Source of the DNA: Planctomycetales bacterium
GTDB taxonomy: Bacteria; Planctomycetota; Planctomycetia; Planctomycetales; Planctomycetaceae
DNA length: 64,000 nt
NCBI GenBank assembly: GCA_026400835.1
Contig: JAPLOA010000087.1
Span: forward strand, 124,001-188,000
Direction: 5' to 3'
Every line of letters begins with the position of its first letter. Positions within the stretch are counted from its first letter, which is position 1. The position numbers were made by a program, and so were the translations under genes. The notes under the pieces are model-generated. The model was given only the letters and a program-made list of their open reading frames with translations. It searched no databases and was not told the origin of the DNA. Shown one piece after another: positions 46,873 through 62,790 of this stretch.

Positions 46873-48408
46873 CTACCGTTCCGGCAGAATTCCGTATTTT
46901 CGCATCTTGTTATAAAGCGTAACACGGCTTATTCCAAGGTGTTTGGCCGTATTCGTACGGCTGAAACTGTTGCTCAGCAACGCTTGTTCAATGATGTCCT
47001 TCTCCGTCAGTTCGATGCGATTTTCCAAAGACTCCCCGCGTCGAACCGAGAAAAACGCTGCGACAGAAGGATCATTTCCCGGGCCCGCATGCCCTTCAAT
47101 CACATGAGACGGCAATGTGTCGGGCATCATACGACCGTCATGACTGTAAATAACAGCACTGCGAATCGCATTCTCCATCTCACGCACATTACCCGGCCAC
47201 GGATATCTCAACAGGCAGTCCAGAAACTCCGGAGTGATCTCTACAACATCAATCCCCAGGTTCGAGGCATGCTGGTGAACAAAAAACCGAGCCAATGGCT
47301 CAATATCCGGCAGTCGCTTACGCAACGGCGGCAGAGTAAAGCTGAGCGTATTCAGTCGATAGTAAAGGTCTGGACGAAAGCGGCCCGACTCCACCAGCGG
47401 CTGCAGTTGCAGGTTGCTCGCGGCGATGACTCTTGCTTTCACATGAAGCGTTTTGTTCGAGCCGACTGGTTCGAACTCTCCCTTCTCAATGACTCGCAGC
47501 AATTTGACCTGCTGATCCGGAGTCAGGACGTCGATTTCGTCCAGCAGAATCGTACCGCTTCCGGCGACGAGAAACTTACCGTCTTTGTCAGCATGAGCAC
47601 TGGTAAACGCACCTTTCACATGACCGAATAATTCACTTTCGATCAACTCACCAGGCAACGCTCCGCACGCCACATGCAGAAACGGTTCATTGTGCCGAGT
47701 TGAATGTTCATGAATCAGACTGGCAAGGTGAGTCTTGCCAGCTCCGGTTTCTCCGATAAGCAGAATGGTGACATTATGCCGAGCAGCCACTTCGAGTCGC
47801 TTCAGCATGATTCGAAGCTCAGGAGTTCGCGTGCGAAACTTCTCCGCCATAAGTCCGGGCACGGAATCGACAACTTCACTGCAATTACGCGAATCGTCTG
47901 ACGCATTGATTCGAGCAGACTGTTGTCGCGAAATCTGCGGCAGAGGTTCTTTCATTCCCTGCAACAAAGCTGCTGGTTTCTGAGTTTGATATTGATCGAC
48001 CACAGCTTCGTTCTCTAGCACCGAATCAGCAGCAGGCTTCTCCGGGCGAAGTATCGACTCTACCAATTCATGGTAATTCTCGTCATGGTTTGTTATCGCA
48101 ATCATGCGGGTGGAGTGCAGAATTTCCTCCGGCAATGAGTCGTAGGTTAACTGCCCGGGAACTATGACAAGCACACAGTCAACAGATTTTACGTTACTGA
48201 TTATCGCGTACGTTCGAGCCAGTTGCTGCGGAGAAGCAGAGCGAACATCGAACACGACAATGTCAGGCCGATGCAGTTGAATCATCTGCGCGGCTTCTGG
48301 CAGAGAATAACACTCCATCAGTCGGCACTGGCCAGCCATCTGGCTTCCGACATTTCGCAGGAATCCAGGAGACGCACTAGAGATCAATGCAACTTCCAAC
48401 GCCTTCAT
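46873..48408 (-). CDS. Sigma-54-dependent activator with receiver-like N-terminus
   Basis: The frame is open to 48450, but the ATG at 48408 begins the family-like MKALEVALISSASPGFL (511 residues). Residues 1-120 resemble a response-regulator receiver (PDIVVFDVRSA near the phospho-Asp position, VLVIVPGQ) but lack the acidic pair and the clear Lys. The AAA+ domain has Walker A GETGAGKT (219-226), Walker B GTILLDEID (284-292) and the sigma-54 contact loop as GAFTSA instead of GAFTGA (266-271). A Fis-type HTH ends the protein (TNTAKHLGISRVTLYNKMRK). Target genes are unknown; no -24/-12 site was seen close by. Confidence 0.9.
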   Translation of the reverse strand: MKALEVALISSASPGFLRNVGSQMAGQCRLMECYSLPEAAQMIQLHRPDIVVFDVRSASPQQLARTYAIISNVKSVDCVLVIVPGQLTYDSLPEEILHSTRMIAITNHDENYHELVESILRPEKPAADSVLENEAVVDQYQTQKPAALLQGMKEPLPQISRQQSARINASDDSRNCSEVVDSVPGLMAEKFRTRTPELRIMLKRLEVAARHNVTILLIGETGAGKTHLASLIHEHSTRHNEPFLHVACGALPGELIESELFGHVKGAFTSAHADKDGKFLVAGSGTILLDEIDVLTPDQQVKLLRVIEKGEFEPVGSNKTLHVKARVIAASNLQLQPLVESGRFRPDLYYRLNTLSFTLPPLRKRLPDIEPLARFFVHQHASNLGIDVVEITPEFLDCLLRYPWPGNVREMENAIRSAVIYSHDGRMMPDTLPSHVIEGHAGPGNDPSVAAFFSVRRGESLENRIELTEKDIIEQALLSNSFSRTNTAKHLGISRVTLYNKMRKYGILPER

Positions 48409-49429
48409 CACGGCACCTCGAATCTTGTTCACGTAGCATTTCGGCATCACGGCGCGGGCCGGATTCCTCTTCTGGACTACAGAACAAAAACAATGCCATT
48501 AAGCGCGCAAGAGCAAAAATGTCTAAAACAGGCCGATTTACGTGTCAGCAAAGATTTACACGTTGGTGAGAAGACATCACATGTTGCTATTCGTCAACAT
48601 CGCGACAGCAGTTATCGGTAAACGACACCAACAGCAACCGAATAATCCAGATGATAACTCACGATGCCACGACCGTCTGATGTCGTCATTGGCGTCATTC
48701 GAAACACAATGAAATGAGCCGGTTAACCTTTCTGAAGCCCGGCGACTTCGCTGCATCATGGCCGCCGATTGATTGGATGCCAACGGCCACGACTCGGCAA
48801 GAGTTACTCCAGAAATATTCATCAGATGAAACACAGGTGTCAGATGCAACGTAACTGTTCACAGCCCGATATAAAGAGCAGTAATGAGTCTCGAGGCGTG
48901 CGGCTGACCAAAAAAAGTCGTGGGCACAATCAAGGAACGGCCGGTCACTCCACCCGTTCGACCAACATCAAAGAACGCTCGAGCCGCAGGACCACTCTGT
49001 CCCACGCCACCTGCGGGATGCAATCCGGTTTGATGATCACCCCGTCGCCCATCCACGAAATTTGATCAATTCGTCATGCTCAGCGAAGATCAGTCGGTGA
49101 ACCGTTACGGCGACACCACGACTCATTAAAAATGAATCAACGAAACCACAACCTTAACACGAGGCCGAACACTCACATGGTCAGCCGAAACGAAGAATAA
49201 CTTCCACTAAGACTCATACAGAAATCCATGTTTTTCGTTTGGATTCGCGTGGATCAGCACTTAGGATGCGGGACGTACTGGCTGGATTTTATGCACCCCA
49301 ACGAGATGGTCGCAGGCGGCGGATTTCATGAACTGCTTCTGAATTACGTGAAGCAATTGAGAATATCCAACCATTCGGTTCTTTTGATCTCTTAAACGGT
49401 TTGACGACGTCATTCCATCGGGAAACCTT
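48409..49429. other. Long gene-poor region with DUF1501 remnant
   Basis: About 1 kb without a supportable gene. It contains the 31-nt DUF1501 fragment at 48922-48952 and several short ORFs with no family-like features. It separates the sigma-54 activator from the TIGR03032-like pseudogene. Confidence 0.55.
48900..48960 (+). pseudogene. Fragment of a DUF1501 gene
   Basis: Positions 48922-48952 are identical over 31 nt to the coding strand of the DUF1501 gene at 43225-43195, in the same sense as a plus-strand gene. The matching frame reads GTIKERPVTP, the conserved motif near the DUF1501 C-terminus. Flanking sequence no longer matches, and the frame soon stops (49031-49033). Confidence 0.6.
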
Positions 49430-50168: not shown

Positions 50169-53100
50169 ATGCAACTCACGAAATGGCTTAGCCAGATTCT
50201 GTCTCAAAACGCATCGTGGCGACTCCGTAAATTGCGCAATGTGACTCGGCGTCGTGAAAAAGGGGTGGTTCACGAGCAAGGGATACTGGAGTGCCTGGAA
50301 GCGAGGATCCTGTTGACGTTTGGCTCTCCGGCATTCACATCCAGCGCCAGCCACAATGTGGCAGAGAACACGACGGCCGTGGCTACAGTCACAGCGACTG
50401 ATGCCGACCTGCAATCCCAGACGGTGTCGTTCGCGATCACTGGAGGAGCCGACTCGGCCCAATTCTCCATCACCAGCGGCGGCGTGCTCACATTCGTTGC
50501 GGCACCGAACTTCGAAATTCCGACCGATACTGATGCGAACAACACCTACGACGTCGAGGTGACAGCGTCGGACAGTGGTACACCGGTGTTGACCACGGTC
50601 CAGAACGTCACAGTCACGGTCAGTGACGTCAACGAGCTTCTGACGTTGATCAGCGGTAGCACAGGCTCTATTGCCGAAAATGAAGCTGTTAGCTCTGTGA
50701 CCTACACAGCCGTTGCCGTCGACCCAGATACAACATCTCCGAATAACAACATCACCTATAACATTAAACCTGGCGTGGATGATGCGGCGTTTGTGACAAT
50801 CAATGAAACAACCGGCGCCGTGACACTGCTCGCACCAGCGGACTTTGAATCGAAGTCCAGCTACTTGTTTACCGTGATGGCTACGGATGGCGGCTCGCCA
50901 GCTCTCAGTGCTGAACAGGTCGTAACAGTGAACGTCCTCAATCAGCCAGAAGGGACGGTCGAAAATGACGCGTTTGTTTTGACATACTCGAGCACCAGCG
51001 TGGCGATCACCGTGGCCACCAATGGAGCTGCGACAACCAGTCTGGGTACGTTCCCGCTGGATGCACCACTAACGCTGTTCGGTCTCGGCGGAACTGATTC
51101 GGTACGAGTTGTTGGAACCGGCATTGCAGACACCCTTACCGTGAGCAATACCAGCCTGACGGTGAACGGGGCCAGTTTGATTCTCACCAGCATCGAAAAC
51201 CGTACTCTGGCCGGTATGGCCGGAAGCGACATCTACCAGTTCGACGCCGATGCGTCTCTGGGGCTGTTCAGGCTGGATGAAGCGGGGGGCAGCATAGAGG
51301 GTGAAGCGGGTGGCGGCACAGACACAATCGACTTGTCGCTCACAACCACAGCAAACATAAATCTGTCACTCAATCTGGGCACCGGTGCGGCTCAGGTTGT
51401 GCATGCGAATCTAAGCCTGAACCTGGGATCCTCCACCACGTTTGAAAATATCGTGGGTGGCTCGGGCAATGACACGCTGACGGGCAACTTTTTGGCGAAT
51501 ACGCTGACGGGTGGCGCCGGGAACGACACGCTGACCGGTGGCAGCGGTGATGATTCTCTGGTTGGCGGATTGGGAGATGACACCTATGTGTTTGCGACTG
51601 CAAATGCGGCGGAAGCGGAGTTGGAGAAGAAGTATCAAGCCTGGGTGGCAACGCTGACGCCCGCCCAGCAAGCATGGGAGGGGACATTGCAGGCGGAGCT
51701 TGGCAGCTTCTATCTGCCGATTCACAAGCGTGAGAAGGTGGCCGGGGAGTCCAACGCCTGGGATTTCGTCGAAGACGATCCAGCGTTGCCGCGAGTCCTT
51801 CTCATTGGTGATTCGGTCTCACGCGCCTACACGCAAGCGGTCCGAGAAGAGCTTACGGGAATCGCCAATGTCCATCGAGCTCCGGCCAACTGCGGGCCAA
51901 CCTCCTACGGGGTGGAAAAGATTGACACATGGTTGGGCGACGGCACTTGGGACGTGATCCACTTCAATTTCGGAATCCATGATCGCGAGACACCGCTGGC
52001 GGATTACGTCACTCGTCTTGAGCAGCTTGTCGAACGAATGCAGCAGACCGGTTCGCAGCTGGTTTGGGCGAGCACAACACCGATTCCTGACGTTCCTGGC
52101 ACGTATTCCGCCGAATCGATTGTTCAACGCAACACAGCAGCCGCTAACTTGATGCAAGAGCATGGAGTCGCCATTGATGATTTATTCACAGCCATCACGC
52201 CACATCTGGCCGAATGGCAAAACCCGAATGATGTTCACTTCTCTGAGCCGGGAAATGAATTTCTCGGTAAGCAGGTGGCAACGTTTCTCAAATCAATGAT
52301 TCCGAATCAGGCATTGAAATTGAATGCTACCAGTGTGTCTGAAGAAATCCCTGGTGGCTCGGGCAACGAAACGCTGACGGGTGTCAGTGGTGGTGATTCT
52401 CTGGTTCGAGGACTCAGAGTGGACACCGATGCGTCTATGGTGGAAGCGGACACCGTGACAGAGGCCGCGAATGAGGGGACGGATTCGCTTTCGTTCAGCT
52501 CACTGACGACGGATGTGATCGTCAGTCTGGGGACAACGGCCGTTCAGACAGTACATTCCAATCGCACACTGAAATTGAATGCGATCGACGCAATTGAGAA
52601 CATCGAGGGTGGCTTGGGAAACGACACAGTGACGGGCAACTCGCTGGCTAATACGCTGACGGGGAATGCTGGGAGCGACGTGCTGTCAGGTGGCAGCGGT
52701 GATGATTCTCTCGTTGGCGGATTGGGAGATGACACCTATGTGTTTCGGACCGCAACGACGGCTGAAGCCGACACAGTAGCGGAAGCGGCGAATGCGGGCA
52801 CGGACAGGCTTTCGTTCAGCTCACTGACGACGGATGTCATGCTCAGTCTGGAGACATCGATTGTGCAGACGGTGCATGCGAATCGGTCACTGAAATTGAA
52901 TGCTGGCAGTGTGTTTGAAGAGATCGTCGGTGGCTCCGGCAACGATACGCTCACGGGCAACTTGCTGGCGAACACGCTGACGGGGAATGCCGGAAACGAC
53001 ACGCTGGCCGGTGGCAGCGGTAATGATTCTCTGGTTGGTGGATCAGGAGATGACAACTATGAGTTTCGGACCACAACGACGGTTGAAGCCGACACAGTTG

Positions 53101-54002
53101 CGGAAGCCGCGAATGCGGGCTCAGACAGGCTTTCGTTCAGTTCACTGACGACCGATGTTATGCTCAGCCTGGAGACATCGATTGTGCAGACGGTGCATGC
53201 GAATCGGTCACTGAAATTGAATGCTGGCAGTGTGTTTGAAGAGATCGTCGGTGGCTCCGGCAACGATACGCTGACCGGGAACTTGCTGGCGAATACGCTG
53301 ACGGGGAATGCCGGCAACGATACACTGATCGGTGTTAGCGGTGATGATTCTCTCGTTGGCGGATTGGGAGATGACAACTATGTGTTTCGGACCACAACGA
53401 CGGTTGAAGCCGACACAGTAGCGGAAGCGGCGAATGCGGGCACGGATACGCTTTGGTTCAGCTCACTGACGACGGATGTGATCCTCAGTCTGGAGACAAC
53501 GGCCGTTCAGACGGTGCATGCCAATCGCACGCTGAAATTGAATACCACCGATGCGTTTGAGAATATCGTCGGTGGCTCAGGCAATGACTCGCTGACGGGA
53601 AACTTGCTGGCCAACATCCTCGTAGGTAATGCAGGTGGCGATACTCTGAGCGGCGGTGGAGGTCGTGACATTTTGATAGGTGGTCCTGGGCTTGATACGT
53701 TGAACGGCGGAGAGGACGAAGACATCCTGATTGCCGGCCGCACGACGAGCGATGCTGTGTTCAGCAAACTGAATCTTCTGCTTGCAGAATGGGTGTCCGT
53801 GAATTCTTACACCACACGAATCAGCAATCTACGATCCAGCGTAGGGGCTCCTGCAGTTTCCCTGAAAGCGAAAGTCAACGTGCTGAACGACGCGGGAGAA
53901 GACGACTCCCTGGTCGGCGGCAACGGAACCGACTGGTACTTCCGAGCCCTCGATGACGTGGTCACGGGGTTAGTCACTGGCGAAATCATGGACATCTTGT
54001 AA
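50169..54002 (+). CDS. Giant cadherin/RTX-like surface protein with embedded SGNH hydrolase
   Basis: A 1277-residue protein. Residues about 38-51 (GILECLEARILLTF) match the planctomycete extracellular N-terminal motif (LExRxLLS). Two cadherin-like domains follow (about 52-156 and 157-258; NVAENTTAVATVTATDADL, FEIPTDTDANNTYDVEVTAS). RTX-like Gly/Asp nonapeptides (GGSGNDTLTG, GGLGDDTY) occur from about 425. At about 480-715 the array is interrupted by a complete SGNH hydrolase: VLLIGDSVSRAYT with Ser549, WDVIHFNFGIHD, and NPNDVHFSEPGNEF with His690. The array then resumes as repeats with a 321-bp period. Calcium binding by the repeats and extracellular location follow from the families; the substrate of the hydrolase is unknown. 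Confidence 0.85.
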   Translation: MQLTKWLSQILSQNASWRLRKLRNVTRRREKGVVHEQGILECLEARILLTFGSPAFTSSASHNVAENTTAVATVTATDADLQSQTVSFAITGGADSAQFSITSGGVLTFVAAPNFEIPTDTDANNTYDVEVTASDSGTPVLTTVQNVTVTVSDVNELLTLISGSTGSIAENEAVSSVTYTAVAVDPDTTSPNNNITYNIKPGVDDAAFVTINETTGAVTLLAPADFESKSSYLFTVMATDGGSPALSAEQVVTVNVLNQPEGTVENDAFVLTYSSTSVAITVATNGAATTSLGTFPLDAPLTLFGLGGTDSVRVVGTGIADTLTVSNTSLTVNGASLILTSIENRTLAGMAGSDIYQFDADASLGLFRLDEAGGSIEGEAGGGTDTIDLSLTTTANINLSLNLGTGAAQVVHANLSLNLGSSTTFENIVGGSGNDTLTGNFLANTLTGGAGNDTLTGGSGDDSLVGGLGDDTYVFATANAAEAELEKKYQAWVATLTPAQQAWEGTLQAELGSFYLPIHKREKVAGESNAWDFVEDDPALPRVLLIGDSVSRAYTQAVREELTGIANVHRAPANCGPTSYGVEKIDTWLGDGTWDVIHFNFGIHDRETPLADYVTRLEQLVERMQQTGSQLVWASTTPIPDVPGTYSAESIVQRNTAAANLMQEHGVAIDDLFTAITPHLAEWQNPNDVHFSEPGNEFLGKQVATFLKSMIPNQALKLNATSVSEEIPGGSGNETLTGVSGGDSLVRGLRVDTDASMVEADTVTEAANEGTDSLSFSSLTTDVIVSLGTTAVQTVHSNRTLKLNAIDAIENIEGGLGNDTVTGNSLANTLTGNAGSDVLSGGSGDDSLVGGLGDDTYVFRTATTAEADTVAEAANAGTDRLSFSSLTTDVMLSLETSIVQTVHANRSLKLNAGSVFEEIVGGSGNDTLTGNLLANTLTGNAGNDTLAGGSGNDSLVGGSGDDNYEFRTTTTVEADTVAEAANAGSDRLSFSSLTTDVMLSLETSIVQTVHANRSLKLNAGSVFEEIVGGSGNDTLTGNLLANTLTGNAGNDTLIGVSGDDSLVGGLGDDNYVFRTTTTVEADTVAEAANAGTDTLWFSSLTTDVILSLETTAVQTVHANRTLKLNTTDAFENIVGGSGNDSLTGNLLANILVGNAGGDTLSGGGGRDILIGGPGLDTLNGGEDEDILIAGRTTSDAVFSKLNLLLAEWVSVNSYTTRISNLRSSVGAPAVSLKAKVNVLNDAGEDDSLVGGNGTDWYFRALDDVVTGLVTGEIMDIL
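52422..53690. repeat. Tandem 321-bp (107-residue) repeat array
   Basis: Equivalent GAC codons of the GDD(T/N)Y motif lie at 52731, 53052 and 53373, exactly 321 bp apart, with a divergent unit of 309 bp before them (52422). Units share long identical stretches, for example the segment encoding SLETSIVQTVHANRSLKLNA in two successive copies. Near identity at DNA level indicates recent expansion or gene conversion. Confidence 0.9.
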
Positions 54003-58039: not shown

Positions 58040-59590
58040 CTATTCTTCGACACACCCCGCGCGATCAACTTTGGCGCGAACTGTCCGTCGGTCCAGCTGA
58101 AGCAGTTTGGCTGCTTTCTCGAAGCTCTTTGTCTGACCATAGGCAATCCGGCAGTACTCGGACAATAGCTCGTCGGCAGTCAGACTGAGTGCCTGAAGTC
58201 GGTCGATCAGACGCTCGACTTCTGGCGAATACTTCCGGGCAGAAACAGCAGCACGGCTTCGAGCTGGTTCGTAGGACCCGTGGATCAGAATATTGCGAAC
58301 ACATTGTTCAAGCTCGCGAATGTTTCCCGGCCATTGATAGGTCTCTGGCAGGTTGCGGCTTAGCCAATGAACCACCTCCTTCGTTAACAACTCCTGTTCG
58401 CCAGCCGCAACGCGTCCTGCAATGTGAGTTACGATGTCCTGAAGAACGTCAGGGTTATCCTCGACCTGTGACACCAGGGATGGAGTCTCAATGACGTCCG
58501 AGCAAAGTCGATAGTACAAGTCTTCACGAAACGTGCCTGCTTCAATTTCGTGCTGAAGGTCTCGATTTGTGGCGGCGATAATCTTCCCTTCGAAGTTTCT
58601 TACTCGAGTTTCCCCGAGCCGCTGAAACTGACGATTCTGCAAGACGCGAAGCAGCTTCACCTGAATTGTTGCGTCCAGTTCGCCAATCTCATCCAGAAGA
58701 ATGGCTCCGTGTTCTCCGCAGGCCTCCAGCCATCCAGCCCGCGCACCTGCAGCACCAGTGAAGGCGCCTTTGGCATGGCCAAAAAGCTCTGACTCAACCA
58801 GGCTCCTGGACATCGCAGAGATGTTAACTCCGAAGTAGCACTCGGCAGAAGAAACTGCGAACGCGTTTTTTTTGGGATCAAACGGAACGTATCGCGACAT
58901 TCCAATGGCCTGTGCCACCAGGTCTTTACCACTCCCACTGGGTCCCGTGACAAGAGTCGTTACCTGATGCAGGCTCCGATACAAGCCGCGGCGGTATCGC
59001 CGAAGGTCATGCGTGAAGATGGACTGCCAGATTCTGGCTCGAAGTTTGGCTGCTGGTGAGGACTGTCCGATCACGCAATGAAAGATGTGGAAGAACGCGC
59101 GATAGATCTGATGAAAGATCTCAAACAGGTGCAGCTTCAGCATGTGCGACGGCAATTGCAGGCCTGGCAGCTGTAACCAATATTCAAACTGTGTTGAATG
59201 CCACTTCCATGTCGCCTGCTCTGCTCCCGTATGACTGGCTAACTCTGGCAACCGTTTCCCCCAAACATCCAACTGCTCATAGAAGAGGATGTACAGAACC
59301 AGATCATCGTACAGACGCAGTTGTTCGTCTCCGACAGCAGGCCTTTGCAGCAGCTTGCTTCTCAAGACTTCGGCAACTCTTCGCGCGCGATCCAGAATCA
59401 GGACAAGGTTACTGCGCCGCTGGGTCATCTGCTCTGTGGTGAAGCCCCAGTACGCATGTGGCTCGGCAACGAAGGAGTCGCCAAGTGCCGCCCTCTCGAG
59501 TTCAAGTCGCTCCGGGAGAAACGGATTGCAGTTGCTCAATTCGCTGACCGCTCGAACAAAGGCCAGATCCTCTGCAGGAATGAATCCCAT
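58040..59590 (-). CDS. Sigma-54-dependent activator, divergent from VIT/vWA gene
   Basis: A 516-residue bacterial enhancer-binding protein. Residues 1-200 form a helical N-terminal region with no recognisable receiver, GAF or PAS domain. The AAA+ domain follows: Walker A GPSGSGKD (216-223), intact sigma-54 contact loop GAFTGA (275-280), Walker B GAILLDEIGE (295-304), FREDLYYRL, and RWxGNIRELE-type sensor II as YQWPGNIRELEQCV. The C-terminal HTH is Fis-like (SFEKAAKLLQLDRRTVRAKV). Divergent arrangement, intact GAFTGA and a -24/-12 promoter before the neighbouring gene suggest it activates that gene, with an input signal sensed by the novel N-terminus or by a partner. Confidence 0.9.
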   Translation of the reverse strand: MGFIPAEDLAFVRAVSELSNCNPFLPERLELERAALGDSFVAEPHAYWGFTTEQMTQRRSNLVLILDRARRVAEVLRSKLLQRPAVGDEQLRLYDDLVLYILFYEQLDVWGKRLPELASHTGAEQATWKWHSTQFEYWLQLPGLQLPSHMLKLHLFEIFHQIYRAFFHIFHCVIGQSSPAAKLRARIWQSIFTHDLRRYRRGLYRSLHQVTTLVTGPSGSGKDLVAQAIGMSRYVPFDPKKNAFAVSSAECYFGVNISAMSRSLVESELFGHAKGAFTGAAGARAGWLEACGEHGAILLDEIGELDATIQVKLLRVLQNRQFQRLGETRVRNFEGKIIAATNRDLQHEIEAGTFREDLYYRLCSDVIETPSLVSQVEDNPDVLQDIVTHIAGRVAAGEQELLTKEVVHWLSRNLPETYQWPGNIRELEQCVRNILIHGSYEPARSRAAVSARKYSPEVERLIDRLQALSLTADELLSEYCRIAYGQTKSFEKAAKLLQLDRRTVRAKVDRAGCVEE

Positions 59591-59644
59591 CGCTGACTCT
59601 CACCGTCTACAGGCACACAGGCATCGCCGGAAAACAGCATTCAA

Positions 59645-59661
59645 TGTACACCAAGTGGACA
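59645..59661. promoter_or_regulatory. Candidate activator-binding palindrome
   Basis: TGTaCAC-CAA-GTGgACA is an inverted repeat with one mismatched base in each 7-nt arm. It lies about 100 bp upstream of the -24 element and 55 bp upstream of the activator start, a suitable position for a sigma-54 enhancer site. Inference from position and symmetry. Confidence 0.45.
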
Positions 59662-59760
59662 TCCAATGCACGCCACGAAATCTGCAGCAGGCATCAGCAA
59701 TTCAGAAGGAACGTCCGCAAAATTAATCCAGTCAATCACTTACGGAGATCCACCAGTTTC

Positions 59761-59776
59761 TGGCACTCGACTTGCC
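59761..59776 (+). promoter_or_regulatory. Sigma-54 (-24/-12) promoter of the VIT/vWA gene
   Basis: TGGCACTCGACTTGCC matches the RpoN consensus TGGCAC-N5-TTGC at every invariant position with the correct spacing. It ends 51 bp before the ATG at 59828, and the divergent gene encodes a sigma-54 activator. Confidence 0.85.
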
Positions 59777-59827
59777 TTATCCGTTTTCGTTCCCAGCTCT
59801 TTAAAACATCTCACTGAGGAGAAGACG

Positions 59828-62020
59828 ATGACGGTTCCTGCATTCAGACATTTCAGACTCTTATCAATGGCCATTCTGGTGGGAGCCTGCTGGCACATTC
59901 AGTCAGCACAAAGTGAAGCTTCGGGGCTTCTGATTGCTGACGGTGGGCTAGGCGGGGCCCTTGAGATCAAGGAGCACGATGTCTCGGTCGTGATCAACAA
60001 TGGAATTGCAGTTACCGAGGTCCGGCAGATCTTTCACAACACCGAACAGCGAATTGTCGAGGCTCTTTACACGTTTCCAGTCCCCGCCGGAGCAAGTGTC
60101 AGCAACTTCAGCATGATCATCAACGGCAAGGAGATGATCGGTGAAGTGGTTGAAAAGAAGCGAGCCCGACAGATTTACGAAAGCTACAAGACCGTCAAAC
60201 GTGACCCGGGCTTGCTGGAGCAGGTGGACTACAAGACATTTGAGTTGCGGATCTTCCCGATTCCCGCCGGAGCGGATCAGCATATCAAAGTCACATACTG
60301 TCAGCAGCTGGACTTCGATCACAACAATGCCACATGGGTTTACCCACTGTCGACGACGACTCGAAAGGACATCAATCAGAAGACAACAGGGAAGTTTTCT
60401 CTGACCGTGGATATCAAAAGCGAGATCCCGATCACCAAGCTAGTCAGTCCGTCTCATGAACAAGACTTCGCGATCACCAGTTACACCCCAAACTATACGC
60501 GGGCCAGCCTCGAAGTTCAAAAGGGCGACCTGAGCCGAGATGTGGTGATCGCCTTTGATACAGAGCGAGCTCGGACGGGCGTTGATATGATCGCATCGAA
60601 ACAACAAGGTGAAGATGGCTATTTTCTGATGACGGTCACCGCTGGAAAAGAGCTGGAAGAATACGGAGCAGGGATGGACTATGTCTTCGTGATGGATATT
60701 TCCGGCAGCATGAGCAACGATGGTAAACTGACACAATCTCGTAACACCATCGATTCGTTTGTGACGACGCTTGGAACAGAGGACCGCTTTGAGATCATCA
60801 CTTTCAACAACGCCCCGCAGATGCACTTCGGGCAGATGACAGTCGTCAGTGATCAGTCTCGAAAATCAGCAGAGGATTTCCTGAGTTCGCAGCGAGCCAA
60901 GGGCGGAACATCTCTCCGTCCGGCGGTCACAACAGCCTACAAATACAAGGACGGAGATCGCCCGCTCAACGTGGTCGTTCTTTCTGACGGCATGACGGAG
61001 ACCAATGAACAGTCCGAACTGCTAAGGCTCATCGCTGACGCTCCTTCCGGAACTCGAGTCTTCTGCGTTGGCATCGGGAATGACGTGAATCGCCCTTTGC
61101 TCAAACAACTCGCCGAGGGTGCTGGAGGGCTGGCCGCATTCGTGTCTCAGCAGGATGATTTCGCACGCCAGGCTCAGGCATTTCGACGGAAGCTGATGCG
61201 TCCGGTCGCCACGGGTGTTCGCATTCAAGTGAATGGTATCGAGACCAGCGATGTGACGCCCGACGCTCTGCCGGATCTCTTCTACGGTGCCCCATTGAGA
61301 CTCTCCGGGCGATACAAGAACTCCGGGGACGCAACGATCACGATTGAAGCCGATGTCATGGGACAGCCGATCAGCCAGACGGTGCAGGTCAAGTTTCCAG
61401 AGGTTGAAGATAAGAATCCTGAGATCGAACGAGTGTGGGCGTTTCAGCAGGTTGAACAACTGATGGCCGACATCCGCAAGAACGGCGAGTCTTCGGCAGC
61501 AGTTGCGAAGATCATCAGCCTGTGCGAGGGATACTCGATTGTTGGTGAGTATGCGTCATTCATTGTTCTTGAGAATGACGCCGAATACGGTCGTTGGGCC
61601 ATCGCTCGGCGAAATGCGATTCGCGTAACGCGAGATGACAAGGCACGACTCCAGCTTCAACAGCAGCTTCAACTCCTGAGGGATTCCGCATTGGCTCAAT
61701 CGGGCCCAGCGGCGCCCGAGAATGTTGCCGCCTCTGAATCCACGCAGCAGGATCTTTCGCAGACTGTTCCAGCGTCGGCAGCAAGTCCCGCTTCTGTGAG
61801 TCCGGCCATTGCCCCGGTTCAAACGACTCCGACGGATCTGAACTGGGCACCGTCATCAGTTCCTTCGGCCAGTCCGTCTTCCAGTGGGGGCGGAGGAAAC
61901 GGCGGAGGAGCGATCGACCCGATCACCGGACTGTTCGCCGCGGGGCTTGCCGCGTCTGCGATACTCAACCGGAAACGACGGACAGCAACGCCACACGGGC
62001 AATCTTCGAAAAGCTCCTGA
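59828..62020 (+). CDS. Secreted VIT and von Willebrand A domain protein with C-terminal sorting-type tail
   Basis: The frame is open from 59666, but ATG 59828 follows GAGGAGA and the sigma-54 promoter and gives a signal peptide (LLSMAILVGACWHIQSAQSE), 730 residues. VIT domain about 35-165 (VINNGIAVTEVRQIFHNTEQ, ALYTFPVPAGASVSNFSM, VVEKKRARQIYESYK). vWA domain about 280-455 with MIDAS motif DISGSMS at 290-296 and SDGMTETNE later. A Pro/Ala/Ser-rich linker follows. The end is tripartite: GGGGNGGG (687-694), hydrophobic IDPITGLFAAGLAASAIL (696-713), RKRR (715-718). This layout is that of GlyGly-CTERM-like sorting signals. The next gene is a rhomboid protease of rhombosortase type. Confidence 0.9.
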   Translation: MTVPAFRHFRLLSMAILVGACWHIQSAQSEASGLLIADGGLGGALEIKEHDVSVVINNGIAVTEVRQIFHNTEQRIVEALYTFPVPAGASVSNFSMIINGKEMIGEVVEKKRARQIYESYKTVKRDPGLLEQVDYKTFELRIFPIPAGADQHIKVTYCQQLDFDHNNATWVYPLSTTTRKDINQKTTGKFSLTVDIKSEIPITKLVSPSHEQDFAITSYTPNYTRASLEVQKGDLSRDVVIAFDTERARTGVDMIASKQQGEDGYFLMTVTAGKELEEYGAGMDYVFVMDISGSMSNDGKLTQSRNTIDSFVTTLGTEDRFEIITFNNAPQMHFGQMTVVSDQSRKSAEDFLSSQRAKGGTSLRPAVTTAYKYKDGDRPLNVVVLSDGMTETNEQSELLRLIADAPSGTRVFCVGIGNDVNRPLLKQLAEGAGGLAAFVSQQDDFARQAQAFRRKLMRPVATGVRIQVNGIETSDVTPDALPDLFYGAPLRLSGRYKNSGDATITIEADVMGQPISQTVQVKFPEVEDKNPEIERVWAFQQVEQLMADIRKNGESSAAVAKIISLCEGYSIVGEYASFIVLENDAEYGRWAIARRNAIRVTRDDKARLQLQQQLQLLRDSALAQSGPAAPENVAASESTQQDLSQTVPASAASPASVSPAIAPVQTTPTDLNWAPSSVPSASPSSSGGGGNGGGAIDPITGLFAAGLAASAILNRKRRTATPHGQSSKSS

Positions 62021-62148
62021 GCTTCCGCCATCGCGAAGATGGTGATCGAACGAAAGCAGGTTGCCGAATTGACGTTCGACAACCTGCCTTCTGTCCTGCG
62101 GCTCAAACAAGATCGAACAACGACGCATTATTGATCAGGGTCAATGCC

Positions 62149-62790
62149 ATGCAGATCAGTTCCCTGTTAGTGAAAACACCAATCACAATGTTGATTTCTG
62201 TATTCGTCATCATCGCGCATATGGCTGGCGAGTTCTCTTCTCCGCTGACGATTGACTTCAGAAGCAGCACGTTCGGCGATTCCTATCGTGTTTGCACGTG
62301 TCATCTGCTGCACTGGTCGTCGAACCACCTGCTGTGGGATCTGGCGATGTTCACAACGCTGGGAGCCATTGCCGAAGTGAACATGTCGCGACATTATCGA
62401 TGGACTCTGTTTCTGTCGGCCTTGCTGATACCGACAGGCGTCATGCTGCGTCATCCTGAGATGGAAACCTACCGAGGCCTCAGCGGCATCGATACGGCTC
62501 TCTTCGGACTCATCGTCGCTGATCTGCTCGCCCGCCGACTCGTTGAACACAACTGGAAGTCGGCCTTCTGGTTCACCTTGCTGCTCGTTGGTCTACTGGC
62601 AAAGATGTTGGCAGAAACACTTGCCGGGACGAACATCTTTGTCAGCGACACATCATTCGTTCCCGTACCGATTGCCCATCTCATCGGCGCCGTGATTGGC
62701 CTGATGATTGGTTTCGGAAGTTACATAATGCCCCCGAGAAAGTGCTATGCTCTCGAGAATCCAGAAATGAGCATTGTGCTTGAATCATAA
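62149..62790 (+). CDS. Rhombosortase-like rhomboid family intramembrane serine protease
   Basis: ATG 62149 is preferred to the TTG at 62131 because AGGGT lies 7 nt upstream; 213 residues. Six membrane helices give the bare rhomboid core. In helix 2 are CHLLHWSSNHLLWDLAMF (His55, His60). The catalytic Ser is Ser112 in YRGLSGIDTALFGLIVA (helix 4), and the catalytic His is His177 in PIAHLIGAVIGLMIGFG (helix 6). Compact size, H..NHL.WD, GLSG and AHL.GA positions fit rhombosortases, which cut GlyGly-CTERM tails, better than housekeeping GlpG-type rhomboids (GASG). It starts 128 bp after the VIT/vWA gene, whose tail looks like such a substrate. Pairing is an inference. Confidence 0.78.
   Translation: MQISSLLVKTPITMLISVFVIIAHMAGEFSSPLTIDFRSSTFGDSYRVCTCHLLHWSSNHLLWDLAMFTTLGAIAEVNMSRHYRWTLFLSALLIPTGVMLRHPEMETYRGLSGIDTALFGLIVADLLARRLVEHNWKSAFWFTLLLVGLLAKMLAETLAGTNIFVSDTSFVPVPIAHLIGAVIGLMIGFGSYIMPPRKCYALENPEMSIVLES

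Follow-up and report, generated by a model that had tools for sequence, protein, structure and literature searches.

A three-gene locus in the genome of a Planctomycetales bacterium (GenBank assembly GCA_026400835.1; 7.58 Mb in 112 contigs) raises the question of whether a secreted protein can have a membrane protease of its own, encoded next to it and placed under a dedicated switch. The locus lies in a stretch of 64,000 nucleotides of contig JAPLOA010000087.1 (positions 124,001 to 188,000), which is called here the window and in which all coordinates are given. A first-pass annotation of the sequence had described a divergent sigma-54 activator, a protein with VIT and vWA domains that ends in a sorting tail, and a rhomboid 128 bp further on, and all three genes were found as described: the activator, a bacterial enhancer-binding protein (58040-59590, minus strand), the secreted VIT/vWA protein of 730 amino acids (aa) (59828-62020, plus strand), and the rhomboid of 213 aa (62149-62790, plus strand). 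Here we argue that these genes probably form a dedicated C-terminal sorting module, in which a sigma-54-switched VIT/vWA protein would have its tail cut by a rhombosortase for anchoring at the cell surface.

A rhombosortase-type rhomboid encoded behind a single VIT/vWA protein

The rhomboid scored 85.6-87.4 bits against the rhombosortase model TIGR03902 (NCBI curated cut-off, 84) and 27.1-27.7 bits against the GlpG model TIGR04239 (cut-off, 250), in agreement with the rhombosortase-like identity proposed previously. A GlpG-type identity was dropped on these scores. Four residues past the catalytic serine (Ser+4), the protein has Thr116 rather than the Tyr or Phe of GlpG-type enzymes. Three further rhomboids of the host genome match TIGR03902 at 34-46 bits only; thus, the other rhomboids exist separately in this genome. 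All 68 aligned homologues of the window rhomboid match TIGR03902 at E<=1e-5. The AlphaFold2 model of the protein contains six transmembrane (TM) helices (mean pLDDT 92.4), and each of its 32 matches in the Protein Data Bank (PDB) at E<=0.001 is GlpG.

The VIT/vWA protein starts with a predicted Sec signal peptide (59828-59920, with cleavage placed by eye near QSEA/SG), which is followed by the VIT domain (59966-60298; PF08487, 106.6 bits) and the vWA domain (60683-61141; PF13768, 74 bits), where the MIDAS motif DISGS was recognized by eye. After the signal peptide, the lineage A VIT proteins carry an A[SA]G[LM]LIADGG motif. Against TIGR03788, the model of marine sortase targets, the window protein scored 262.4 bits, under the cut-off of 551.65, and it contains no LPXTG.

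The association of the two genes was assessed in three sets of loci. In the named genomes, loci were retrieved with the rhomboid as the sole query, through the motifs YRGLSG-x-D-[ST] or HW..H..[WL]D, and the best 80 of 151 were analysed; a VIT/vWA gene is located upstream of the rhomboid in 71 of these. Of the nine unpaired loci, eight start no more than about 300 bp from the end of a contig; the ninth (L159) retains a GGGGGG-AIDP...RRRR tail without the body of the protein. The latter locus (L159:840-2638) consists of the activator, the end of the VIT tail only, and the rhombosortase, owing to either a deletion or an assembly fault. Within the family, TIGR03902 was matched over the cut-off in 12 of 150 genomes, with 13 matches in total, eleven of which have a VIT/vWA gene directly upstream; in G137 and G138, the enzyme and the VIT gene are on separate contigs, each within about 300 bp of the contig end. 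Matches just under the cut-off, in G113, G079, and G047, are also VIT-paired, whereas the next 15 lower-scoring loci (L019-L033) show no VIT match in flanks of up to 1.5 kb. Together with the 71 of 80 rhomboid-retrieved loci, this contrast indicates that the gene pair is beyond chance. Conversely, close VIT orthologues (at least 53% identity) occur in 13 genomes of the family, and each of these genomes has one of the 18 best TIGR03902 matches.

Across the phylum, the enzyme was detected at E<=1e-15 in 35 of 392 genomes. Among the 30 loci read, 26 have a VIT gene (25 within the flank, and L104 with one small gene in between), and L096 is at a contig edge. The other three show no VIT match upstream and contain instead a gene whose product scores 212-307 bits against the rhombotarget lipoprotein model TIGR04179 (cut-off, 150) and has a glycine, hydrophobic, and arginine tail of its own (L107:2034-3014, minus strand; L108:521-1501, plus strand; L112:2034-2981, minus strand); the enzymes of L107 and L108 have GLSA rather than GLSG. 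Judged by the length and range of their contigs, ten or more loci occur in both the named set and the others (L114/G138, L116/G073, L117/G081, L118/G047, L120/G079, L126/G409, L143/G143, L145/G113, L157/G137, and L180/G133), so these are not independent samples. In the 69 loci measured, the VIT stop codon and the estimated start of the rhomboid are about 126 bp apart in the median and about 700 bp at most. The conservation of the gene pair in relatives, which the first-pass annotation had anticipated, is thus borne out, and the comparison supports a pairing of one putative enzyme with one predicted substrate.

The C-terminal tail

The predicted sorting tail (61886-61981) has the layout described in the first-pass annotation, a glycine motif followed by a TM segment and a basic cluster: the C-terminus reads GGGGNGGG-AIDPITGLFAAGLAASAI-LN-RKRR, followed by 12 residues, with AIDPITG after the glycines. 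A glycine pair, a hydrophobic stretch, and basic residues are present in the last 60 residues of all 69 assessable named relatives, and Asp-Pro is found two residues past the glycine run in 53 of these 69 tails; two of the 71 VIT genes were left out of the count, one with masked letters (L169) and one available as a short piece only (L191). The tail is absent from all 13 VIT/vWA paralogues with complete ends and without a rhombosortase match in the flank (27-31% identical), out of a set of 17, four of which are cut off.

When 70 tails were compared with the two GlyGly-CTERM models at E<=1, the variant model TIGR03867 matched 41 (best, 2.4e-5) and TIGR03501 matched two (best, 0.032). TIGR03501 has no match at E<=1 anywhere in the host genome, and the idea that the tail would be detectable by the standard GlyGly model was rejected on the absence of model matches. 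A profile was built from tails of this kind. In the genome-wide search that the first-pass annotation had envisaged, this profile yielded 17 matches at E<=1e-3 in 16 genomes with the module, all of them paired VIT proteins. G073 is the sole genome with two matches, and it carries two enzymes. Seven of the 16 genomes exceeded the 150 candidates scored, and the window genome was fully scored (105). Because the profile was built from such tails, this result demonstrates the absence of other similar tails rather than of all other substrates.

The active site

The catalytic positions assigned previously were recovered by alignment to GlpG. The Ser-His dyad, which in rhombosortases is made up of a GxSG serine in TM4 and a histidine in TM6, consists of Ser112 in GLSG (codon 62482-62484, within YRGLSGIDTALF, where Asp115 is at +3 and Thr116 at +4) and His177 in AHLIGA (codon 62677-62679), and helices of the model begin at residues 112 and 174. 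In the profile alignment, Ser112 corresponds to Ser201 of GlpG, Thr116 to Tyr205, Asp115 to Val204, and Asp64 to Asn154, the oxyanion residue of GlpG. According to Haft and Varghese (2011; PMC3237569), rhombosortases have an AHxxGxxxG motif in TM6, a WRxxS/T motif in L1, and, in "virtually all rhombosortases", a histidine at Ser+4. The window rhomboid has the TM6 motif (AHLIGAVIG) and, in L1, YRVCT, with Tyr in place of Trp (WRxxT is the family consensus).

The TIGR03902 search supplied 16 sequences, every one of which has Ser or Thr at Ser+4; among the 18 of the 30 profile-found phylum loci that could be read at this position, there is Ser or Thr in 17, Cys in one, and His in none. Asp at Ser+3 is present in all 16 sequences of the former set and in 15 of the 18 loci of the latter (missing in L101, L106, and L111). 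These two sets, which share two members, are those on which no Ser/Asp motif was imposed. In the alignment of 68 homologues, Ser112 and His177 are invariant, as are Lys152 and Glu156; this set was mostly retrieved or filtered by a Ser-containing motif, and its named-locus rows were limited to loci with Asp at +3 (75 of 80 passed), so that the invariance of Ser112, Asp115, and their neighbours is partly imposed.

The three planctomycete enzymes encoded beside a rhombotarget lipoprotein have Thr at +4, but their +3 residue is Ala or Gly, and in two the serine is followed by Ala. Hence, the loss of His at +4 is not peculiar to the VIT pairs, whereas Asp at +3 apparently is. The contrast at Ser+4 was made against the text of the 2011 paper rather than against proteobacterial rhombosortase sequences: a plasmid search for classical representatives was empty, and a PDB search returned GlpG only. 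It is conceivable, but in our judgement doubtful, that the VIT-paired rhomboids are a rhombosortase class apart, found in planctomycetes and their relatives, whose chemistry has changed (Ser+3 is Asp, the oxyanion Asn154 of GlpG is replaced by Asp, and the His or Tyr that stacks on the catalytic His by Ser or Thr). With the Lys152 and Glu156 that are invariant in the alignment, such enzymes could be intramembrane proteases of a Ser-His-Asp type or tuned to transpeptidation, would recognize GGGA-IDP, and would be switched on through sigma-54 only when one adhesion-type protein needs display. The Thr at Ser+4 shared with the rhombotarget-lipoprotein enzymes makes this class less likely; the Asp at +3 is not shared with them.

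The sigma-54 activator and its putative enhancer and promoter

The activator matches PF00158 (157 bits), has an intact GAFTGA motif, judged by eye, and contains a C-terminal DRRTV region. Its N-terminal domain (residues 1-205) is all-helical, with a conserved NPF..R...E..ALG signature, and was modelled by AlphaFold2 with a pLDDT of 83.9. No Pfam family was matched by this domain in the window member, with one weak match in one of 20 members, and no PDB fold matched the model at E<=0.001. This looks like an unstudied family of sigma-54 activators with a new N-terminal domain. The host genome encodes RpoN (372 bits; cut-off, 277).

A -24/-12 promoter-like element, CTGGCACTCGACTTGCC, with 11 of the 13 consensus positions, is located at 59760-59776 on the plus strand. 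A Gibbs search of the DNA upstream of activators (52 regions, including 17 from the activator-region set) yielded the palindrome TGTACATTNAATGTACA; the regions from which it was learned include loci scored below, no set being held out. In the window, three overlapping copies make up a putative enhancer (59634-59672, no strand), starting 11 bp apart at 59634, 59645, and 59656, with 12 of 16 matches each. No other site in the whole window reaches 12 of 16, and the three copies are 104-126 bp before the -24/-12 element. The VIT gene most likely starts at ATG 59828 rather than at ATG 59666 of the longest reading frame, because the promoter-like element sits between the two, a Shine-Dalgarno-like GAGGAG precedes 59828, and the predicted signal peptide follows it. 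For the rhomboid, ATG 62149 is the most likely start, rather than TTG 62131, and the 128 bp to the VIT stop codon are measured from this ATG.

Both elements recur beside the activator in relatives. The palindrome, at a threshold of at least 12 of 16, was detected in 28 of the 35 activator-bearing VIT loci, 3 of the 29 that lack the activator, and 23 of 1280 shuffled sequences; another count gave 28 of 36, 4 of 34, and 42 of 2000 random windows, some of which may overlap true sites. The -24/-12 element, at a threshold of at least 11 of 13, was detected in 19 of 35 VIT loci with the activator, 5 of 29 without it, and 6 of 1280 shuffled sequences (20 of 36, 4 of 29, and 41 of 1600 random windows in the other count). 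In the 21 activator loci that have both a palindrome and a promoter (thresholds of at least 12 and at least 10, respectively), the two are separated by 95-102 bp (11 loci), 114-127 bp (nine loci), or 170 bp (one locus). An activator match above 150 bits is present in 36 of the 80 named loci, always divergent to the gene pair, and the activator is found in 34 of the 57 loci whose sequence extends 1.8 kb or more beyond the VIT gene on the upstream side. Among the 392 phylum genomes, the activator was detected in 44, the enzyme in 35, and both in 20, compared with about four expected (hypergeometric probability 1.2e-12, which ignores relatedness). These sequence comparisons support the predicted sigma-54 control of the VIT gene, in line with the first-pass annotation.

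The activator as an exclusive partner of the sorting pair was considered and rejected, because its family adjoins other genes: there is no VIT match in 17 of the 20 activator regions retrieved. Of the 24 activator genomes without an enzyme match, 17 were retrieved and 7 were not; two of the 17 (G406 and G166) have a VIT gene beside the activator. In many planctomycetes, members of the family are encoded, with the upstream palindrome, beside non-VIT genes (regions L204-L223). Across the host genome, the palindrome with up to three mismatches occurs in nine places, compared with five for the reversed control, and the sites in the window themselves carry four mismatches, so that we do not claim a wider regulon.

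Distribution and co-divergence

By record titles, the pair is mostly planctomycete and also occurs in Verrucomicrobia or Opitutaceae, Lentisphaerae, and Kiritimatiellota; a few bins titled Paceibacterota, Nealsonbacteria, Elusimicrobia, and Proteobacteria that carry it may be misnamed. Cultured planctomycetes with the pair include Rhodopirellula rubra (L165) and Stieleria tagensis (L181). Genome G073 contains two VIT-rhombosortase pairs of different lineages (L070 and L072), which have separate enzymes and distinct types of tail. In two genomes of the second VIT lineage, a gene with a secretin domain is encoded just upstream of the VIT gene in L068 (2214-3878, minus strand; PF00263) and near G094:C18:39912-40475, a possible route of exit through the outer membrane.

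Distances in the trees of the three proteins are correlated, with Mantel r of 0.54 for VIT and rhomboid (60 loci), 0.61 for VIT and activator, and 0.85 for rhomboid and activator (33 loci); none of 999 permutations was as high in each case, in a test that ignores the relatedness of species. Identity of the window VIT protein to a counterpart from another genus (G073) is 88%; within its own genus, identity is 94% (G138, partial), 84% (G081), and 62-63% (G113, G133, and G143), and 5 of the 11 sampled genomes lack a VIT match. This patchy distribution within the genus suggests that the module may have moved between lineages.

Proposed mechanism and alternative explanations

In the mechanism that we propose, the activator would bind the phased array of palindromes and, via sigma-54, turn on the VIT/vWA gene, probably together with the downstream gene for the rhombosortase. 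Once exported through Sec, the VIT/vWA protein would stay in the inner membrane by means of its tail, with the glycines outside, the short hydrophobic helix with its conserved IDP helix breaker in the membrane, and the basic residues inside. The rhombosortase, with its SG-x-D-[ST] motif, would cut near the junction of the glycine-rich run and IDP through Ser112 and His177, and the new glycine C-terminus would probably be joined to a lipid-type amine, by analogy with RssP of Vibrio, for whose substrate VesB such an attachment has been proposed (PMC6219818). The vWA domain would thereby be displayed on the cell surface. The pairing, the tail, the enzyme family, and the anatomy of promoter and enhancer rest on comparison; DNA binding, cotranscription, cleavage, lipid attachment, and surface display are inferred.

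Several observations weigh against this reading. The window tail matches neither GlyGly-CTERM model, and 12 residues follow its RKRR, compared with 0-5 past the TM helix or basic end in the GlyGly-CTERM proteins of Haft and Varghese (PMC3237569). The rhomboid exceeds the TIGR03902 cut-off by just 1.6-3.4 bits and lacks the hallmark His at Ser+4. Among the 35 activator-bearing loci, 7 have no palindrome of at least 12 of 16 and 16 no promoter of at least 11 of 13, and the activator is missing from 23 of the 57 loci with enough upstream sequence (1.8 kb or more). Type II secretin models were matched in all 16 genomes with the module, over the cut-off in four, the window genome being below it.

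Shedding of ectodomains is a common activity of rhomboids, and the enzyme could accordingly release rather than anchor its substrate, cutting the VIT/vWA ectodomain off by hydrolysis, with no lipid, so that the module would supply soluble protein, either periplasmic or secreted, when required. The departure of the active site from classical rhombosortases at Ser+4 fits this possibility and means that a modification of the RssP type cannot be assumed. However, the family match is to rhombosortase rather than GlpG, and the tripartite tail with its conserved glycine run resembles those of GlyGly-CTERM proteins that are retained at the surface (PMC6219818, PMC13393428), so that we regard release as unlikely, if still a serious contender. 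That the tail is a mere membrane anchor, with a VIT/vWA protein that works in the inner membrane beside a rhomboid homologue whose role as its partner is non-proteolytic, finds some support in Asp64, which stands at the position of the GlpG oxyanion Asn154, but Ser112 and His177 are invariant in all 68 homologues (a set shaped by the Ser-containing motif, as noted above), and we consider this reading very improbable. Scarcely any weight is given to a GlpG-like protease of quality control or regulation whose position behind the VIT gene is incidental: GlpG of V. cholerae can likewise cut a GlyGly protein when the rhombosortase is missing (PMC11389362), but the 71 paired loci out of 80, the co-divergence, the GlpG score far below its cut-off, and the separate existence of other rhomboids in the genome all argue against it. 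Sorting by a dedicated rhombosortase is the reading that we retain as probable.

Relation to known sorting systems

Among the literature matches listed, a single paper, that of Haft and Varghese (PMC3237569), joins rhombosortase, planctomycetes, and vWA. In 16 of the 21 single-target genomes of that study, enzyme and target are at most one gene apart, and the dedicated pairs include those of Rhodopirellula baltica SH 1 and Opitutus terrae (Table 3 therein). VIT/vWA proteins are reported there with GlyGly, PEP-CTERM, or LPXTG tails. The window pair shares with the 2011 pairs the TIGR03902 family, an enzyme adjoining one target, and a tripartite tail, with VIT/vWA proteins among the GlyGly proteins (Figure 3C legend therein), but differs in Ser or Thr rather than His at +4, Asp at +3, IDP after the glycines, and the 12 residues past the basic cluster. 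In the rhombotarget lipoprotein system, a single target is likewise encoded directly upstream of a planctomycete rhombosortase, and His at Ser+4 is also absent (Thr was read), but the target is a lipoprotein with a frame of 316-327 aa rather than a VIT/vWA protein, and the enzymes have Ala or Gly rather than Asp at Ser+3.

Rhombosortase had been described in the first-pass annotation as usually one enzyme for many substrates, which is incomplete, adjacent single-target pairs being already present in the 2011 study. Its further proposal, an independent one-to-one version that uses a rhomboid, stands as to the pairing, on comparison, but not as to novelty: because the 2011 pairs and VIT/vWA GlyGly proteins are known, and NCBI has a dedicated target family in TIGR04179, the module is of a kind already described and is not unprecedented.

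RssP of V. cholerae, the model for the proposed mechanism, is a rhomboid that cuts a glycine motif at a C-terminal TM tail, as in VesB (PMC6219818, PMC11389362, PMC13393428), but there one rhombosortase serves six GlyGly proteins, four of which are named or putative proteases. The marine proteobacterial sortase system (TIGR03788) likewise combines a VIT/vWA target with a sorting enzyme of its own, but it uses a sortase and an LPXTG tail, and the window protein, at 262 bits, is well under the cut-off of that target family. The PEP-CTERM/EpsH exosortase system with PrsK-PrsR (PMC1569441) resembles the window in targets that carry a sorting tag, -24/-12 elements, and an upstream activator motif, and differs in an unrelated enzyme, many targets, and an activator with a receiver domain, in contrast to the helical N-domain of the window activator.

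A term search of the main text of PMC3237569 returned no mention of sigma-54. Within the literature searched, which most subscription papers fall outside, four features look new: the anatomy of the sigma-54 control, how widely and how strictly the enzyme is paired with VIT proteins, the GGGA-IDP tail missed by the standard model, and the enzyme type with Asp at Ser+3 and Ser or Thr at Ser+4.

Other features of the window

The intergenic region between the VIT and rhomboid genes (62021-62148) contains a hairpin, GCAGGTTG...CAACCTGC; its RNA folding is ordinary compared with shuffles (z -1.54), 15 of 200 shuffled sequences being equally well folded. Elsewhere in the window, the gene at 50169-54002 (plus strand) encodes a further protein that is likely to be secreted or at the surface, of 1277 aa and with matches of the cadherin, RTX calcium-binding, and GDSL-lipase-like kinds. 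The gene at 46873-48450 (minus strand) encodes a second sigma-54 activator, in which the helix-turn-helix is of the conventional Fis type.

Implications

The locus points to an unstudied family of sigma-54 activators with a readable DNA site, and the motifs of the tail and of the active site can be used for annotation. By record titles, the capture of VIT/vWA proteins by rhombosortase extends across several phyla. In the literature consulted, experiments on rhombosortase concern Vibrio, with its single enzyme for six substrates (PMC13393428). As a compact unit of one putative enzyme and one predicted substrate with its own switch, the module could be transferred intact to a laboratory host, as a means of learning how cleavage and attachment proceed.

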